The translations under genes were made by a program, and so were the position numbers. From the NCBI RefSeq assembly GCF_000319385.1, contig NC_019566.1, forward strand, positions 1-64,000: 64,000 nt of DNA, read 5' to 3'. Origin of the DNA: Candidatus Endolissoclinum faulkneri L2 (GTDB lineage Bacteria > Pseudomonadota > Alphaproteobacteria > Thalassobaculales > Thalassobaculaceae). This document shows, piece by piece, positions 6,585-56,787 of this stretch; the stretch's first letter is position 1, and each line of letters opens with the position of its first letter. The notes beneath the pieces were generated by a model. The model saw only the letters and a program-made list of their open reading frames with translations. It was not told the origin of the DNA and made no database searches.

Positions 6585-9479
6585 CTATTCTTTATCTTTA
6601 TTTTGATAACTTTCAATCGTAGGACAGCAACAATAAACGTTACGATCACCATATACGTTATCAATGCGCGATACTGAAGGCCAATATTTAGACATTTCCA
6701 TTCCTTTTAGCGGAAAGGCTGCTTGGCGACGACTATACGGTTTATCCCAAATATTTTCCATCAAGTTATAACTAGTATGTGGTGCATGGCGTAAAGCTGA
6801 GGATTCGAGATCCATGATACCTTCCTCAATTGCTTGAATTTCTTTACGTATTGAGATCATCGAATCACAGAAACGATCAATTTCTGTTTGGCTTTCGCTT
6901 TCAGTTGGTTCTATCATTAAAGTTCCTTCTACCGGAAATTCTATAGTTGGAGCATGAAATCCATAATCAATTAATCTTTTAGCAACGTCGTCAACGCTAA
7001 CGCCGCAGCTATCCTTAAAAGGACGCAAGTCTATAATACATTCATGGGCTACAAGCCCGTTTGGCCCTGAATAAAGTATTTTGTAGTAATCAGATAGCAA
7101 TTTTGCTATATAATTCGCGTTTAGAATAGCGACTTGAGTTGCTTTTTTTAAACCGTAAGCTCCCATCATACGTATATATGTCCAGCTGATCGGAAGAATA
7201 CCGGCGCTACCATAAGGAGCAGATGAAACAGCACCGATAGATTGATCATTACGTTTGTATTTTTCTGTAGTAGGCAAAAATTTGATTAGATGTTGAGCTA
7301 CACCAATTGGTCCGACCCCAGGCCCTCCTCCACCATGCGGAATACAGAAAGTTTTGTGTAGGTTCATGTGGCTAATATCAGAGCCAAATTCATGTGGCTT
7401 GCATAGGCCGAGGAGGGCGTTTAGATTAGCACCATCGGTATAAACTTGACCGCCATTTTCGTGAATAATTTGGCAAATTTCCTTAATCTTAATTTCAAAT
7501 ACACCATGAGTAGATGGGTATGTTATCATTAAAGCAGCTAAATTGTTGGAATATGTTTCTGCTTTATTTTTCAGGTCATTAATGTCGACATTACCTTTAT
7601 CATCACATCTAACTACAACCACACTCATGCCTGCCATTGCGGCTGAAGCTGGGTTGGTACCGTGAGCTGAGGAAGGTATTAAACATATATTACGATGTGC
7701 TTCACCTCGCGAACGATGATAAGCACGAATTACTAACATGCCAGCATATTCTCCTTGAGCGCCGGAATTAGGCTGAACGGAGACAGTTGAATATCCAGTT
7801 GCATTTGCAAGCATTTGTTCAAGCTCACCGATCAAACGCAAATATCCTTGCGTTTGATCGGTGGGGGCAAAAGGATGAATATTAGCAAATTTTGGCCAAG
7901 TAATCGCTGTCATTTCTGTGCTAGCATTTAGCTTCATGGTGCATGATCCAAGAGGAATCATTGAACGATCAAGCGCAATATCTTTATCTGATAGTCGGCG
8001 CAAATAGCGTAGCATATCGGTTTCAGACCTATGCTGCTTAAATATAGAATGTGTTAAGAACTCTGATTTGCGGCGTAATTCAACGGGAATAGTATCATTG
8101 CTAATTGCATCGATCTGATCAAAGGTAAATTTGGCTTTGTAATTTTGACAAAAACAAGACCATATACGTTCAACTGCGTTTTGGTCTGAGGTTTCGTCTA
8201 AGCTAATTCCAACGGCATTTTTCAATAAGCGTAGGTTTAAAGCCTCAGATCTAGCCTTTTCCCAGATAGTAATAGCATGATGCTCCGTCGCATTAACTGT
8301 TATAGTGTCAAATAGGGTATTACTGTCTAGTTTGCAGTCGAGCTGTTTAAGTCCTGCGACTAAGATTGTAGCAAGTCGATTTATTCTTTTAGCAATTCGA
8401 GTTAGACCCTCAGCGCCATGATAAACTGCGTACATAGATGAAATAATTGCTAACAACACTTGAGAAGTGCATATGTTAGAGGTTGCCTTTTCGCGACGAA
8501 TATGTTGTTCACGAGTTTGTAGTGTGAGGCGGTATGCAGGGCGACCATTGGCATCGATTGATACTCCAACGAGACGTCCAGGTATTTTACGTTTATATAT
8601 ATCACGAGTAGCAAAATAAGCAGCATGTGGGCCGCCAAAAAACATTGGTACTCCAAAGCGCTGAGTAGTACCAATGGCTATGTCGGCATTCCATTCTCCT
8701 GGTGGAGTGATTAAAGTCAAAGCCAAAAGATCGGAAGCAACTACTACGATAGCTTTTTGATCATGAACTTGTTGGACAAATTCTCGGTAGTCCTCTATCG
8801 CCCCACGGGTTGTCGGATATTGCAGTAAATAACCAAATGCTTTGGCAGGTAATTCAGCGAATTCATTTCCAACTTCTATATCTATTCCGATTGGCTCAGC
8901 TCGATTGCGAAGTACGGCAATAGTTTGTGGATGAACTCCACTAGAGACAAAAAATACTGTGCTATGAGATTCTGCTGCTAATTTATATGCAAGCACCATG
9001 GCTTCTGCTGCTGCCGTACCTTCGTCGAGCAGAGAAGCATTCGCAATATCCATACCAGTTAGGTCGGTTATCATGGTTTGAAAATTTAGCAATGCCTCAA
9101 GTCGGCCTTGACTAATTTCTGCTTGGTATGGGGTATATGCAGTATACCAAGATGGATTTTCTAATACATTTCTCTTAATCACTTCAGGGGTAATCGTATT
9201 GTAGTATCCCATTCCGATTAATGAGGTTGCGATTTTGTTAAGTGATGCTATTTCAGCCAATTCGTTAATAGTTTCATATTCTCCCTTAGGAGAATCAAGG
9301 TCGAGGGATTCTGTTAAATGTATTGATTGAGGTAGAGCAGCAGTAATCAATGAGTCCAGACTATCATATCCTAGGAATGATAACATCTGAGAGATTTCTT
9401 TTTTGCTAAGGCCAATATGCCGTCTAATGAATGCACTTTGCTCATACAAATGGTCAATCTTTTTTCTGTAATCGGTCAT
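6585..9479 (-). CDS. gcvP: glycine dehydrogenase (decarboxylating), P-protein
   Basis: 964 aa, the single-chain form with N- and C-terminal PLP-fold halves. It decarboxylates glycine and passes the aminomethyl group to the lipoyl arm of GcvH. The PLP lysine is K709 in [41 protein letters not shown] and YPSTHG precede it in the C-terminal half. It is the last gene of gcvT-gcvH-gcvP, starting 39 bases after gcvH. Bases 7826-7863 of the gene form a perfect 16-bp inverted repeat, which encodes [13 protein letters not shown], a variable-looking stretch of an otherwise conserved region. Confidence 0.97.
7826..7863. repeat. 16-bp perfect inverted repeat inside gcvP
   Basis: Arms CACCGATCAAACGCAA (7826-7841) and complement (7848-7863), loop ATATCC. 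Contains many G and C, so chance is unlikely. Lies within the coding sequence of the P-protein. Confidence 0.93.
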
Positions 9480-28073: not shown

Positions 28074-28733
28074 ATGAACACTATTGCTATTATTGATTAT
28101 GGTGCTGGTAATTTACGTTCAGTAGCGAAAGCTTTTGAACGATCTTCTCGAGATTATGGCATATTAGTTAATATTAAAGTGACTAGTGATATTGGGATCA
28201 TCGCTAAAGCTGATCGCATTGTTTTTCCTGGTGTGGGAGCTTTTCCGGACTGTCGGTCCTGGGTTGATCGAGTGCATGGATTGTATGATGTCTTGGAGAG
28301 GAGAGTAATTCACGATTCAATACCATTTCTTGGTATTTGTGTAGGCATGCAACTGATGGCTAAAGTTGGATTTGAACATATGACTACTAAGGGGTTTTCA
28401 TGGATCGACGGGGAAGTACACCGGATAATTCCGAAAGATAAAGAAAAAAGGCAAATTTACAAAGTACCGCTTATAGGCTGGAGTATGCTTAAATTTTGCA
28501 CTAACTATCATCCAGTACTATTAGGTTTACAAGATGGAGACCATGTATATTTTCTCAACTCTTATGCTATACGCGTTCACGATACCGATCAGCAGCTTGC
28601 AATTACTGATTATGGTGGTTCGATATGCGCAATAGTTGGTCGAAACAACATGATCGGTACGCAGTTTCATCCGGAAAAAAGCCAGGCAATTGGCTTGCGT
28701 CTTATCTATAACTTTATCAAATGGTCACCGTAA
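28074..28733 (+). CDS. hisH: imidazole glycerol phosphate synthase, glutamine amidotransferase subunit
   Basis: 219 aa. Class I glutaminase that passes ammonia to HisF. The catalytic triad is visible: C89 in GICVGMQL, H199 and E201 in QFHPEK. IDYGAGNLRSV and FPGVGAFPDC open the protein. AAAGGA before the ATG is a good ribosome-binding site, close behind hisB. It is only useful with HisF, which is not in this window. Confidence 0.97.
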   Translation: MNTIAIIDYGAGNLRSVAKAFERSSRDYGILVNIKVTSDIGIIAKADRIVFPGVGAFPDCRSWVDRVHGLYDVLERRVIHDSIPFLGICVGMQLMAKVGFEHMTTKGFSWIDGEVHRIIPKDKEKRQIYKVPLIGWSMLKFCTNYHPVLLGLQDGDHVYFLNSYAIRVHDTDQQLAITDYGGSICAIVGRNNMIGTQFHPEKSQAIGLRLIYNFIKWSP

Positions 28734-29563
28734 AATAACTTACTGTACTCCAAAATATTTTAATTAATATATTAATTTGCTATATTGGTAACTCGTGAAG
28801 GTATGCTTTACATGAAATTCACATGAAAAATTGTAACAGTAATTTTAATTAATGCTAGTAGCATATTTAGAGTATATTAATAAAAATATGTTTTGTATTA
28901 GGGTAAAAATTTATTTTTAACTATGATTGCCTAACAGATTTTGATCCCAATTGATATTATATGGTTATAGTTTAACTTTGCCTTGTAAGCTGTAAACCTT
29001 TAAGCAATCATTTTTTTATGCAAGATAAAAAAGATACATATTCTTGTTTTAGAGTAATAAAAGAATAGGGATTTTCTGATTACCTATTGATTTATTATTA
29101 TTAAATTTTTAGTAGATTACTGGCTAATCATTATGCTTTTATAAATCAATTTATTCTTGTACTTTTGTTATTTTAGTGTTCTTATATTAAGAAGTAGTAT
29201 CGATTATGCTGCAATTTATGGGTTATCTAAGAAAAAATTAGAAAACGGATAAAGGATTTTTATGTACGTGATTTATTCTTAATAAGTAAAAATTTTTTTG
29301 CTTTTGTTACACGTATTTTTAGTTTTTTTAACTAACTTGTAATGAAAAATTTATGCTATAAATGTGAGTAGCATTGCTTTCTTAGATTCAAATGTTAATT
29401 TGAAATTAAATTACATCTGCAGTCTACGTAAACTAATAAATAATATTAATAATTATTAAGTAATAAAATTTAGCAAAATTGTTTTTCTAGAAGATATTTA
29501 ATTTATATTAAATATACCTGACAAGCATATTAATATGCTTGTCAGGTATATTCCGCCCTCGGC
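28734..29563. other. spacer where hisA/hisF might be expected
   Basis: 830 bases between hisH and the tRNA gene. No HisA or HisF sequence in any frame. A 16-base AT palindrome (AATTAATA arm) lies near 28757-28772, and a 42-base perfect palindrome at 29511-29552, listed separately. Confidence 0.5.
29511..29552. repeat. 42-base perfect palindrome just upstream of tRNA-Ser
   Basis: Two 21-base arms with no spacer; each arm includes ACCTGACAAGC or its complement. It ends 11 bases before the tRNA 5' end. Fully symmetric, so it could form a cruciform. A role as tRNA promoter or upstream terminator is possible but not shown. Confidence 0.9.
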
Positions 29564-36046: not shown

Positions 36047-37348
36047 ATGGACCTCTTTAAAAATCAATTTATTTGTTCGCTTGCTGATCGATTGCGGCCA
36101 AAACAACTAGATGAAGTGGTTGGTCAGGATCATCTACTGGGTCAATCAGGTCTAATTAGCAGCATGTTAGCTAAAAGGCGGTTGGCATCAATGATTATGT
36201 GGGGGCCGCCAGGATGTGGAAAAACGACAATTGGTTTGTTACTTTCGAAAAAAGTTGGATTGGAATTTATGTCACTATCAGCTGTGTTTTCTGGTATTTC
36301 CGACATAAAGAAAGTGTTTGCGAAGTCTCGAGTATTGCATGCTGTTGGCAACAAAGGCATTTTACTATTTATTGATGAAATTCATCGCTTTAATAGAGTT
36401 CAGCAGGACTCTTTACTTCCCGTAATAGAAGATGGTAGAGTGATCCTAGTTGGGGCTACAACAGAAAACCCTAGTTTTGAACTTAGTGCATCGCTTCTTT
36501 CTCGTGTTCAAATTTTTGTACTTCGTCGACTTGATGACACAGCTTTAGATCTACTGCTCAGCCGTGCTATTGAAAAGGAGGGAAGGGAACTACCTGTAAC
36601 TGAGGATGGTAAAGCTACTTTACGAGAGATCGCTGATGGTGATGGACGTTGTTTATTGAAGATGGCCGAGGAAGTATTTGATCTTTCTCCGAATCAACCC
36701 CTAGATTCCTCTGGAATTATATCAAGAATGCAATCTCATGCTGCAACTAATTATAAAAAAAATCGAGAAGAAAAGTACAATTTAATCAGCGCGTTGCATA
36801 AGTCAATGCGTGGATCAGATCCAGATGCGGCATTGTATTGGTTAGCACGTATGCTTAATAGCGGTAAGGATCCAACATATATTTTACGTAGACTTACTCG
36901 CTTCGCTGTGGAGGATGTCGGTATGGCTGATCCTACAGCTATTACCACTGCTATTGCTTGTTGGGAAGCGTATAAGCGACTTGGCTCTCCAGAAGGAGAC
37001 TTAGTGATTAGTTATCTTGTTATACATCTTGCGACCGCAAATAAATCAAATGCTACGTATAAAGCTCACGAAGCTGCTAAGCATTTGGCAAAAAAAACAC
37101 ATTCGCTAATGCCTCCAAACCATCTTCTTAATTCACCTACCAGGTCAATGGAAAAATTATCGTATGGATTAGATTATTCTTATCATGATGAAATAGATAA
37201 TTCCTTTTCTGGTCAAAATTTCTTTCCAGATAGAATGGTTCGCCAGCGTTTCTATAATCCCGTAAAAGTTGGCTTTGAGCTAGAGATTAGTAATAGACTA
37301 GCTTATTTTGATAGCCTGCGTTGCAAGCGTCGGAACGAGCGAACTTAA
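36047..37348 (+). CDS. rarA: replication-associated recombination protein RarA (MgsA), AAA+ ATPase
   Basis: 433 aa, full length. AAA+ clamp-loader relative that acts at stalled forks. Walker A GPPGCGKTT at residues 53-61, Walker B FIDEIHRF around 109-115, sensor 1 VGATTENPSFE, and the C-terminal MgsA tetramerisation region including GSDPDAALYWLARML and NSPTRSMEKLSYG. Its retention is notable beside the many palindromes, but no causal link can be read from sequence. The RluC-family gene follows; crcB, which I recall between them in relatives, is absent. Confidence 0.95.
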   Translation: MDLFKNQFICSLADRLRPKQLDEVVGQDHLLGQSGLISSMLAKRRLASMIMWGPPGCGKTTIGLLLSKKVGLEFMSLSAVFSGISDIKKVFAKSRVLHAVGNKGILLFIDEIHRFNRVQQDSLLPVIEDGRVILVGATTENPSFELSASLLSRVQIFVLRRLDDTALDLLLSRAIEKEGRELPVTEDGKATLREIADGDGRCLLKMAEEVFDLSPNQPLDSSGIISRMQSHAATNYKKNREEKYNLISALHKSMRGSDPDAALYWLARMLNSGKDPTYILRRLTRFAVEDVGMADPTAITTAIACWEAYKRLGSPEGDLVISYLVIHLATANKSNATYKAHEAAKHLAKKTHSLMPPNHLLNSPTRSMEKLSYGLDYSYHDEIDNSFSGQNFFPDRMVRQRFYNPVKVGFELEISNRLAYFDSLRCKRRNERT

Positions 37349-37972
37349 GACCATGTTAATTTAAACAAATAACTATAAAACTATTGCCTGACCTTAGAGG
37401 AGTTTTCCACAATAGGTTAATTAAGACTTGAATTTTAGCAGCGAGCAAAGCATTAGCGCAAGATAAGTTTACAAATAATGGTTGATCTTAAAATTGTTTA
37501 GCGCTTTTAGGGGAAATAGGTCTCTGTCAATGCTCTATTATATATTTAAGTTTTCTGATTAACTTTATAGATTAATTGTTTTTTCCGATTAATTAAAATT
37601 TAGTGTTTTGATTTCTTCAAATAAGTTAGCTATCCTCGTTAAATTTTTAATACTACATGATATTATTCCAGCACCAGTTATTCTTAAAGCGTTAAGTTAT
37701 GTAAAATAAATATAAGATGATATTTTAGGTAATTACGGTAAAGTGTTATTGTATATTAACAAACAAGATAAGTAAAATTACTTGTGCTTATAATAACTAA
37801 AATAGATTATTCACTAGCAGTAAATAATCTATTTTAGTTATTATAACTTTATGTGTGATTGTCTATAACAATAAGCATTTTTTGGTAAGGAGTTTGGTAT
37901 AATGTATGATCCCTTTTTACACCTTTGATAAATTTACTTTTTAAGTTAATCATCACAAAGCAAATTATTTTT
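37349..37972. other. spacer between rarA and rluC
   Basis: 624 bases. No gene recognised, including no CrcB-like membrane frame. Contains the 24-bp inverted repeat at 37788-37846. Confidence 0.5.
37788..37846. repeat. 24-bp perfect inverted repeat
   Basis: Arms 37788-37811 and 37823-37846, centred on AATAACTAAAATAGATT and its complement; loop of 11 bases. It lies 126 bases upstream of the rluC start. No GC-rich stem and no clear T-run, so it is not a standard terminator. Confidence 0.9.
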
Positions 37973-38971
37973 ATGAGTGGGTATGTAAAAAGTCGTATAG
38001 TAGCTATTGATGAAGTCGGTCAGCGATTAGATCATTGGTTTAATAAGCATTTCCCTGCTATTAGACATGGTCAAATTTCTAAACTATTACGTACAGGTCA
38101 AGTTCGTGTTGATGGTAAGCGCGTTAAAATAAACTGTCGTTTGATATTGGGCCAAACAATACGTGTACCACCATTATGTAATAATTTAATATACAAAAAT
38201 AATTTTATTAAATCATATCAACAGGATACTAAAACTGGAAATAAACTAATTAAATCGATCTTGTATCGTGATAAAGAAATAATTGTAATCAATAAACCAG
38301 CCGGGCTTGCAGTACAGGGTGGCTCAGGACTAACTAAGCATGTAGATGGAGCACTTGATAGTCTTCGTTTCGAAGCAAGCGAAAGGCCACGGCTAGTTCA
38401 TCGTTTAGATAAGCACACCTCAGGTGTGCTTATCTTGGCTCGTCAACAAAGCTCCGCTAGAAGATTAATCAATGCTTTTCGTGCTAAATCAGCGGTAAAA
38501 ATTTATTTAGCCTTAGTGATCGGAGAACCCAAGCCTGCAATTGGTCAAATTAATTTACCTATTGCTAAAGTAGCAAACAAAGTGAGTGAGAAGATGATGG
38601 TAGATTACGAAAATGGAAAACACGCCCTTACTCGTTATTCTACTTTAGAAAAATTAAGTTGCCATATAACTCTTGTTGCTCTTTTTCCTGTCACAGGTCG
38701 TACCCATCAGCTTAGAGTGCATATGGCAGGCATAGGTACACCAATTCTTGGAGACAGTAAGTATGGAGGTGTAAAAGCTTTCTTGAAAGGTCAATTGGTG
38801 AGTAAAAATATGCATTTGCATGCCTGTGCTATTCGTATTCCAAGTTATAGCGGAGATGATTTAGAAGTAACTGCTCCTTTGAGAGATCATATGATTAAGT
38901 CTTTTCGCTTTTTTGGGGTAAAACCAGAGAGGTATGAATTACCATTCAGGTTTTTTGATCATATAAGTTAA
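37973..38971 (+). CDS. rluC: 23S rRNA pseudouridine synthase, RluC/RluD family
   Basis: 332 aa from the ATG at 37973; an upstream TTG at 37925 is in frame but adds a sequence unlike the family. N-terminal S4 RNA-binding domain (SKLLRTGQVRVDGKRVK), then the RluA-type catalytic domain: NKPAGLAVQGG, HRLDKHTSGVLILAR with catalytic D146, and GRTHQLRVHMAGIGTPILGD. The residue after Lys in the motif is His (H148), where Asp, Asn or similar is common. This codon lies in a perfect palindrome at 38407-38435. RluC versus RluD is not certain. Confidence 0.92.
   Translation: MSGYVKSRIVAIDEVGQRLDHWFNKHFPAIRHGQISKLLRTGQVRVDGKRVKINCRLILGQTIRVPPLCNNLIYKNNFIKSYQQDTKTGNKLIKSILYRDKEIIVINKPAGLAVQGGSGLTKHVDGALDSLRFEASERPRLVHRLDKHTSGVLILARQQSSARRLINAFRAKSAVKIYLALVIGEPKPAIGQINLPIAKVANKVSEKMMVDYENGKHALTRYSTLEKLSCHITLVALFPVTGRTHQLRVHMAGIGTPILGDSKYGGVKAFLKGQLVSKNMHLHACAIRIPSYSGDDLEVTAPLRDHMIKSFRFFGVKPERYELPFRFFDHIS
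38407..38435. repeat. 14-bp palindrome inside the rluC catalytic motif
   Basis: Arms 38407-38420 (AGATAAGCACACCT) and 38422-38435 with a single central base. It covers the codons for DKHTSGVLIL, directly at the catalytic Asp. Confidence 0.9.
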
Positions 38972-39352
38972 TTTTAGCAACATTGGGTAAAAATATTCTT
39001 ACACTAATTAATTAATACAATTAGTTATTTTAATTAGTGTATGAAGGTGTTATTTATTTGACTTAATAGAAAATGACAACAAAGGATCGGACGTATTGTT
39101 GTGCTAGTAAATGAATAGATTTTGTTTATCTAGATTAGTAGAGACTGTGATCATTAATCAATGATCATCTGAGCGAATATTAAAACTAGGAATTTAATAA
39201 TACCTTTGTTTTTTCTTTGGTAAAGGGCTGTATAAATTATTACAATTTAGATCGGTTACTTTGTAAAAAAACTTAAATTAGTGAATAACTAATTTAAGTT
39301 TTTTGTTCTTGATATAATTAACAAAATAAAAATTTATATTCGTGGAGCTAAC
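38972..39352. other. spacer upstream of pdxJ
   Basis: 381 bases. Holds a 12-bp inverted repeat with an 18-base loop (39000-39011 and 39030-39041, TACACTAATTAA arm), which may end rluC transcription, and the 17-bp hairpin at 39266-39304. Confidence 0.55.
39266..39304 (+). terminator. 17-bp hairpin with T-rich foot, terminator or attenuator candidate
   Basis: Arms 39266-39282 (AAAAAACTTAAATTAGT) and 39288-39304, loop GAATA. The right arm ends in six T. It ends 48 bases before the pdxJ ATG, so it is either the rluC terminator at a distance or a leader hairpin of pdxJ. The stem is almost free of GC, which makes it weak. Confidence 0.5.
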
Positions 39353-51794: not shown

Positions 51795-51838
51795 ATCTGC
51801 TTGACATAAAAATTATTTAATTTTTATGTCAAGCAGAT
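51795..51838. repeat. 21-bp inverted repeat covering the lolA start codon
   Basis: Arms 51795-51815 and 51818-51838 with a two-base loop; each arm holds CTGCTTGACAT or its complement. The lolA ATG at 51826-51828 is inside the right arm. In mRNA it would hide the start codon in a long helix. Confidence 0.92.
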
Positions 51839-52461: not shown

Positions 52462-53740
52462 CAAATAAACTTATTATTGTACGATAATGATGTATTGACA
52501 ATTATTATTTTTTTAATTTTTTATTTAATATTTTGAAAGATTAATGAATGTTAAATGTTAATTTTAAGCATAGTATTACTCCATTATATCTGAATATAGT
52601 TCAAGGCCGAACGATAAAACAACGCAGTAAAATTATTTTTAGTTTACTTTATTAAATAAAATTGGTCTAAATGAAACTCATTGCATTATTTTTTGTAGTT
52701 TAATCAAGTGTTGTATAAACTAACTAGATCATTAGAATTAATTTTAAAAATTCATTAAAATAATATTCATAGTATTTCATATGTTTTCGTATCATCAAAT
52801 TAACTTAAAAAATAGTATTTGTTGTTTAATTTTAACAAATTATAACGAAATTATTTTTAACATTAGTGGTGTATACTTAGTATTTTTAATACATAGCACA
52901 TTAGCTAAGTTAAAATAATTAATCTTATAATAAAGAAATTATTTTGCTATTTTCATCGACTTATTTACCGATATAAAATCGGTATGGGAGTATATTATTT
53001 TGTAGCAGTTATTTCCTTAAAAGGTATCAACTACAATAGATATGAATAATTATATCTAAATAGCTATATAATAGCTTGAGTAAAATTTATACAATTTGAT
53101 TTAGGATATAAGGTGTAAAGTTCTATAGTATTAGCACTGAATTAATACAACAAACATAGCGTACTATGCGATAAAATCCTCAGAAATCATCAATTCAACC
53201 TTTAGCTGATATTTTGTCTGAAGTCTTTTTGTAAGATTTTACAAATAAGAATAATTACATAATATAAACGATTAATTATTAGTCGATTAGCGATATATTA
53301 TTTTACTATTTTGATTTTTGAAGAAATATTTTTCTATTAGTAATTTTTATCTATCCTAGCCAAGAGAATACTAGCGTTATAATATTCTCTTGGCTAGGAT
53401 AGATAAAAATTAAGAAAAAAGATTTGAAAACTGTTAATAAATAATATTATTCTCTATAGAGAACTTACCTTTTAGTCGGAAAGAAATATTAAACTATATT
53501 TACTACAATTGTCGAATTGCTGAAGACATCTAAAGTTATATTAGATAGTATTGTTCATTCAGTTGCCAAACAACTGAATAATTTATCGTTAATACAATAT
53601 CACTACTTAAAAAGTCAATCTACTAGATATTTTAGATTAATTTATATAAAAATATTTAATGTATTAAACAGCAAAATTAATCATCCTTCTACTGATTACA
53701 CTAGTTTAAATTAATAATAAAAATATGTCAGAAATAAAAA
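52462..53740. other. spacer between convergent lolA and M16 peptidase
   Basis: 1,279 bases. No exodeoxyribonuclease III frame. Contains a 7-bp hairpin TACCGAT near 52967-52985 and the 30-bp inverted repeat at 53341-53412. A 65-codon frame at 53517-53714 has no recognisable sequence and a TTG start; not called. Confidence 0.5.
53341..53412. repeat. 30-bp perfect inverted repeat
   Basis: Arms 53341-53370 and 53383-53412, loop of 12 bases. The arm includes CTATCCTAGCCAAGAGAATA. Longest perfect stem in the window. It lies between convergent genes, so a bidirectional terminator is possible. Confidence 0.93.
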
Positions 53741-56741: not shown

Positions 56742-56787
56742 GATATATACATATAGTTATGTTATAACATAACTATATGTATATATC
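56742..56787. repeat. 46-base perfect palindrome
   Basis: Two 23-base arms without a spacer (56742-56764 and 56765-56787), AT-rich, with ATATAGTTATG in the left arm. Cruciform-prone. Confidence 0.93.

Follow-up and report, generated by a model that had tools for sequence, protein, structure and literature searches.

Quasipalindrome mutation by template switching, through which an imperfect inverted repeat is made perfect, has been studied with reporters in Escherichia coli (PMC7202029). In Saccharomyces cerevisiae, template switching within coding genes homogenises short intragenic inverted repeats and results in nonsynonymous substitutions, and multi-nucleotide events of this type have been polarised on the strain tree (PMC8604942). 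Template switching also makes and maintains RNA hairpins, whose perfect stems and compensatory changes arise from one DNA-level process (PMC8794818). The mitochondrial genomes of hairworms carry long inverted repeats genome-wide, embedded in coding sequences (PMC10380579). The bacteria considered here are much reduced. 'Candidatus Endolissoclinum faulkneri' L2 and L5 are tunicate symbionts with genomes of 1.48 and 1.51 Mbp, of which 56-57% is coding and whose noncoding DNA has a GC content of 24.7-25.9%; they separated 6-31 million years ago, and the loss of recA and mutSLH has been reported for them (PMC3851785). No earlier description of an excess of palindromes in this species was found in the literature searched, the genome paper (PMC3851785) using neither 'palindrome' nor 'inverted repeat', and a literature search for inverted repeats and template switching in reduced symbionts gave no match.

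The locus analysed here is found in a window of 64,000 nucleotides, which corresponds to positions 1 to 64,000 of the L2 genome (G000 in the genome set, a single contig of 1,481,191 bases). The open reading frame and profile matches define a coding sequence for an RluA-family pseudouridine synthase of 332 amino acids at 37973-38971 on the forward strand (ATG at 37973, from which residues are counted; stop codon at 38969-38971), the open frame reaching up to a TTG at 37925. The protein scores 222 bits against TIGR00005, above the cut-off of 192.7, and 117 bits against PF00849. The nearest solved structures are those of RluC (1xpi and 1v9k), and the score against the RluC equivalog (23S rRNA Psi955/2504/2580) is 195 bits, under its cut-off of 378. 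The original prediction, made from the letters of the window, had spoken of an RluC-family synthase; the RluA subfamily is well supported, and RluC is therefore a loose label. It was right that the catalytic aspartate is kept: this residue of the HRLD motif is invariant in the homologues aligned and is present in the window as Asp146 (GAT, 38408-38410).

A 29-nucleotide inverted repeat at 38407-38435 spans the catalytic motif HRLDKHTSGVLIL (codons 145-155). It comprises a left arm of 14 bp, AGATAAGCACACCT (38407-38420, forward strand), and a right arm of 14 bp, AGGTGTGCTTATCT (38422-38435, forward strand), which are 100% complementary and are separated by a single nucleotide, the C at 38421, the middle base of the Ser150 codon TCA. 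The codons run GAT (38408-38410, Asp146), AAG, CAC (38414-38416, His148), ACC, TCA, GGT, GTG (38426-38428, Val152), CTT and ATC, so that the catalytic Asp146 codon pairs with that of Ile154, and C38414, the first base of the His148 codon, pairs with G38428, the wobble base of Val152. The perfect 14-bp palindrome and the pairing of CAC with GTG had both been noticed before, with GTG placed three codons on; it is four codons on. Since its 27-bp core occurs once per genome, the palindrome, a single-copy sequence, was rejected as a repeat element or member of a binding-site family. An insertion was also rejected, given that the sequences of relatives align across the palindrome without gaps. An assembly artefact is unlikely, the palindrome being found in two separately assembled sister genomes with different bases. 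A terminator was rejected as well: the palindrome sits within a gene, and of the intergenic hairpins inspected, most are separated from the closest conserved gene by hundreds of bases.

Residue 148, which follows the lysine of the motif, is acidic in 97 of 101 homologues (D in 91, E in 6), the others having N (1), H (2) or Y (1). The statement that Asp or Asn is frequent at this position is thus correct for Asp but not for Asn, and the histidine of the window is as unusual as had been suggested. Apart from the window, histidine is carried by one free-living member of the family (L024), so that it is not common in free-living relatives, and the tyrosine belongs to the sister genome described below. 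The free-living carrier has CAT...GTC and no palindrome; His148 is therefore tolerable in itself. Perfect arms reach 14 bp in both symbionts and no more than 6 bp in the 99 relatives. All four free-living congeners have Asp at this position, encoded as GAC or GAT and accompanied by GTC in three of them and by GTT in the other. According to the original prediction, a change from GAC to CAC would have perfected the palindrome. As GAC...GTC is already complementary, the details of this step are probably incorrect: the ancestor probably had a G.C pair here, which a lone change from G to C would have broken.

The sister genome (G001), of the same genus and 1,518,636 bases long, is colinear with the L2 genome around the synthase gene. 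Its site reads AGATAAGTACACCTCAGGTGTACTTATCT, and the 14-bp arms are again perfect. Thirteen pairs of the stem are identical, while the remaining one has changed on both arms, from C.G to T.A, giving TAC (Tyr148)...GTA where the window has CAC (His148)...GTG; the change at Val152 is silent. In this comparison, which the original prediction had proposed, the sister thus does not have the same codons, and neither of the two observations named as refuting the prediction was made. By a hand calculation, two differences among 28 arm positions would land on the same pair and be complementary with a probability of about 0.012 (1/27 x 1/3). Coding sequences of the two strains differ at 13.4% of sites, and at 24% of third positions. 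These results speak for part of the earlier idea of templated mutation, since the palindrome is non-random and the paired change leaves the arms perfect, as templating predicts, while the route from GAC to CAC is unsupported as it was worded.

Perfect hairpins were also counted across sampled stretches (about 58% of the L2 genome and 53% of the sister), with arms of at least 14 bp and loops of at most 20 nucleotides. The L2 genome has 114 in 864 kb (13 per 100 kb) and the sister 142 in 800 kb (18 per 100 kb), compared with 21 across the 1,425 kb examined from 80 named relatives, or 1.5 per 100 kb; in these stretches, the density in the symbionts is 9-12 times that of the relatives. The controls, among them a genome of 31% GC, gave 0-1 hairpins per sample; a single hairpin was counted in 120 kb from a free-living congener, and likewise in 160 kb from an AT-rich alphaproteobacterium whose genome is 1.4 Mb long. 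Random sequence from a first-order Markov model, which preserves the dinucleotide frequencies, gave 0 to 0.2 per stretch. Within the window alone, 21 perfect inverted repeats are found (arms of at least 10 bp, loops of at most 20 nucleotides), with arms of up to 30 bp. For instance, intergenic hairpins lie at 29511-29552 (21-bp arms, no loop), 51795-51838 (21-bp arms, 2-nucleotide loop), 53341-53412 (30-bp arms and a 12-nucleotide loop, the longest of the window) and 56742-56787 (23-bp arms, no loop). Perfect intergenic hairpins occur on both flanks of the synthase gene, just upstream at 37788-37846 (24-bp arms, 11-nucleotide loop) and downstream at 39000-39041 and 39266-39304 (arms of 12 and 17 bp). 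Most perfect hairpins of both symbionts are located in decayed intergenic DNA, at positions that are generally not common to the two sisters, which makes function an unlikely explanation for them; forced alignments of one sister against the other were mostly unreliable for these hairpins and were left out. In coding DNA, 7 palindromes with arms of at least 14 bp were counted over 393 kb of conserved coding sequence of the L2 genome, against 0.17 in synonymous-codon shuffles, and 10 in the sister, against 0. The abundance of perfect palindromes throughout the genome is a larger finding than the single site.

The mismatch content of the stems is also informative. When stems are 20 bp or longer, few have one internal mismatch: 3 such stems stand against 32 perfect ones in the L2 genome, and 6 against 48 in the sister. 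From 13 bp upwards, the ratios of perfect to one-mismatch stems are 119:48 and 150:45 in the symbionts, against 28:30 in the relatives. Simple decay would be expected to give a one-mismatch class about as large as the perfect class. Nor are there many stems with G-T or A-C mismatches, which RNA pairing could accommodate on one strand. The scarcity of mismatches is better explained by their removal at the DNA level, or by perfect palindromes that arise and vanish quickly, than by selection on RNA structure.

The evidence from paired changes is less clear. Over all coding hairpins with arms of at least 12 bp, 6 paired changes were observed against 1.9 (sd 1.3) in a transplant null, and 7 against 3.6 (sd 2.0), an excess that is modest and not convincing and that comes partly from a noncoding hairpin upstream of mutM. 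This hairpin, at 719118 of the L2 genome and initially taken as coding, was dropped as evidence of coding covariation, since outgroups place it upstream of the mutM start. It is a 17-18 bp hairpin (719118-719151; L046:19118-19151) just upstream of a mutM-like start, near-perfect in both strains and with two paired changes, and it may be a functional noncoding stem. Differences in coding hairpins did not cluster in one arm as a class (p about 0.6-0.8), and amino-acid departures in the hairpin-bearing lineages were not above those of their sisters (7 vs 9). Individual cases nonetheless resemble footprints of templating. The first is a hairpin at 7826-7863 (16-bp arms, 6-nucleotide loop) within a conserved coding sequence on the reverse strand, presumably of a glycine dehydrogenase-like protein: three sister differences all fall in one arm, one of them replacing Ser by Thr, and they disrupt or shorten the stem in the sister. 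In the sister's sucD-like gene (orthologue of that at 1343195 of the L2 genome), an Asp invariant among congeners has become Gln through a change from GAT to CAG, and the new codon fits the other arm of a 15-bp stem. Both cases were picked by eye and are suggestive. Likewise, the sister orthologue of the gene at 28074-28733 of the window, which we take to be HisH-like, contains a 13-bp loopless palindrome, TGCAAGCTGCTGA/TCAGCAGCTTGCA, that accompanies SLQAA in place of the RVHDT of the L2 genome, all five arm differences being in one arm.

It might be that a palindrome-prone motif and AT drift produced the stem over the catalytic motif by chance and that His or Tyr at position 148 is ordinary drift under relaxed selection. 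In this sense, the motif is indeed prone to pairing: in relatives, a mean of 6.7 of the 14 positions pair there, compared with 3.8 around randomly chosen centres, and the value reaches 11 of 14 in one free-living congener; the occurrence of His148 once elsewhere without a palindrome and the unclear overall excess of paired changes in coding stems point in the same direction. Nonetheless, given the peptide and the codon usage of the genome, the probability of perfect 14-bp arms is 5.0e-6 for the window and 1.1e-5 for the sister's peptide, and chance is also disfavoured by the codon shuffles, by the genome-wide excess and by the presence of the palindrome in the sister with a compensated pair. 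The seed of the palindrome thus comes from the protein motif, but its perfection does not, and we regard chance with protein constraint as an unlikely account. It is even less probable that the palindrome was formed once in the ancestor of the symbionts and has had no time to decay, its single pair change being luck. The 13 identical pairs would agree with such an age, as would three other coding palindromes with arms of 14-15 bp (in L2 genes at 107383, 286493 and 1305159) whose arms are identical in both strains; however, about 4 differences are expected over the 28 arm positions, and the two observed are both on one pair.

If selection acted on a hairpin in RNA or DNA, for instance through mRNA pausing, stability or processing, the change from C.G to T.A would be a compensatory one that passed through a G-U intermediate. 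The predicted RNA fold is strong on both strands (-22.3 kcal/mol, z -6.6, and -20.3 kcal/mol, z -6.5) and remains so in the sister (-20.6 kcal/mol, z -6.2), and the pair change is of the type used to infer conserved stems. On the contrary, the stem is absent from the 99 relatives, so that it does not behave as a conserved RNA stem, and it accompanies the replacement of a residue that is otherwise acidic in nearly all homologues. It is also one among hundreds of like stems, mostly in decayed intergenic DNA and at sites not common to the sister, and the dominance of perfect stems over those with one mismatch extends to the mismatches that RNA would tolerate. Such selection is accordingly judged rather improbable, although not quite as improbable as an old and undecayed palindrome.

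The leading explanation, which we consider somewhat more probable than all others together, is that hairpin-templated mutation of the template-switch or quasipalindrome type acts on the DNA and maintains the identity of the arms. Near-perfect arms, a short spacer and complementarity kept between relatives are all found at the site. In this mechanism the nascent strand would fold back, one arm serving as the template for the other, and copying would either wipe out mismatches or transfer a new base to the opposite arm. The codons of DKxTSGVLI, being prone to form a palindrome, would have provided the seed, and the stem would then have been perfected over 14 bp within the symbiont lineage. A silent change at the wobble base of Val152 could then have been transferred to the first position of codon 148, where it would have replaced the family's Asp by His in the window (C.G) and by Tyr in the sister (T.A). 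The copying mechanism and, with two symbiont strains compared, this order of events are inferred; drift at the Val wobble base first is the likelier order. The same process may fill both symbiont genomes with perfect hairpins.

The repair genes of the symbionts may bear on this mechanism. In E. coli, quasipalindrome mutation is held in check by exonucleases I and VII, and the loss of exonuclease VII raises it. Searches for recA and xseA, the latter encoding the large subunit of exonuclease VII, found neither in the two symbionts and both in all four free-living congeners, while recJ is retained. These losses might be linked to the excess of hairpins, the absence of xseA being a correlation only. 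SbcCD gave no match in the symbionts; its loss is uninformative as a cause, since the free-living congeners give only weak matches to sbcC and sbcD, below the cut-off. An AAA ATPase gene (36047-37348), presumably RarA/MgsA-like, is retained in this recA-less genome. More broadly, and with a confidence that falls short of even, hairpin copying might be a major mutational force in a lineage that lacks recA, mismatch repair and exonuclease VII, one that generates and preserves perfect palindromes by the hundred and turns silent changes in one arm into amino-acid replacements in the other, even in the catalytic motif of a conserved enzyme. If this is true, an amino-acid change in a symbiont that resembles relaxed selection or adaptation would be a by-product of DNA geometry, and covariation of base pairs, the usual proof of a functional RNA stem, could occur without RNA function. 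The two genomes would then constitute a natural experiment on how palindromes behave when recA, mismatch repair and exonuclease VII have been missing for millions of years.

With respect to the described systems, the site has the same predicted mechanism and context as the E. coli quasipalindromes, although that work used reporters while the present evidence comes from genome comparison (PMC7202029). The coding genes of S. cerevisiae likewise contain short intragenic inverted repeats with nonsynonymous consequences, but the yeast events are polarised and involve several nucleotides, whereas here there is one compensated pair between two bacterial sisters and no polarised single-arm footprint (PMC8604942). 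Perfect stems with compensatory changes are likewise shared with the RNA hairpins attributed to template switching, which nevertheless belong to RNA genes under selection for structure and not, as here, to coding and decayed intergenic DNA (PMC8794818). Finally, the inverted repeats of hairworms are similarly spread over whole genomes, but that report describes them as exclusive to the phylum, and they reside in animal mitochondria, while those of the symbionts are on a bacterial chromosome and are mostly intergenic (PMC10380579).
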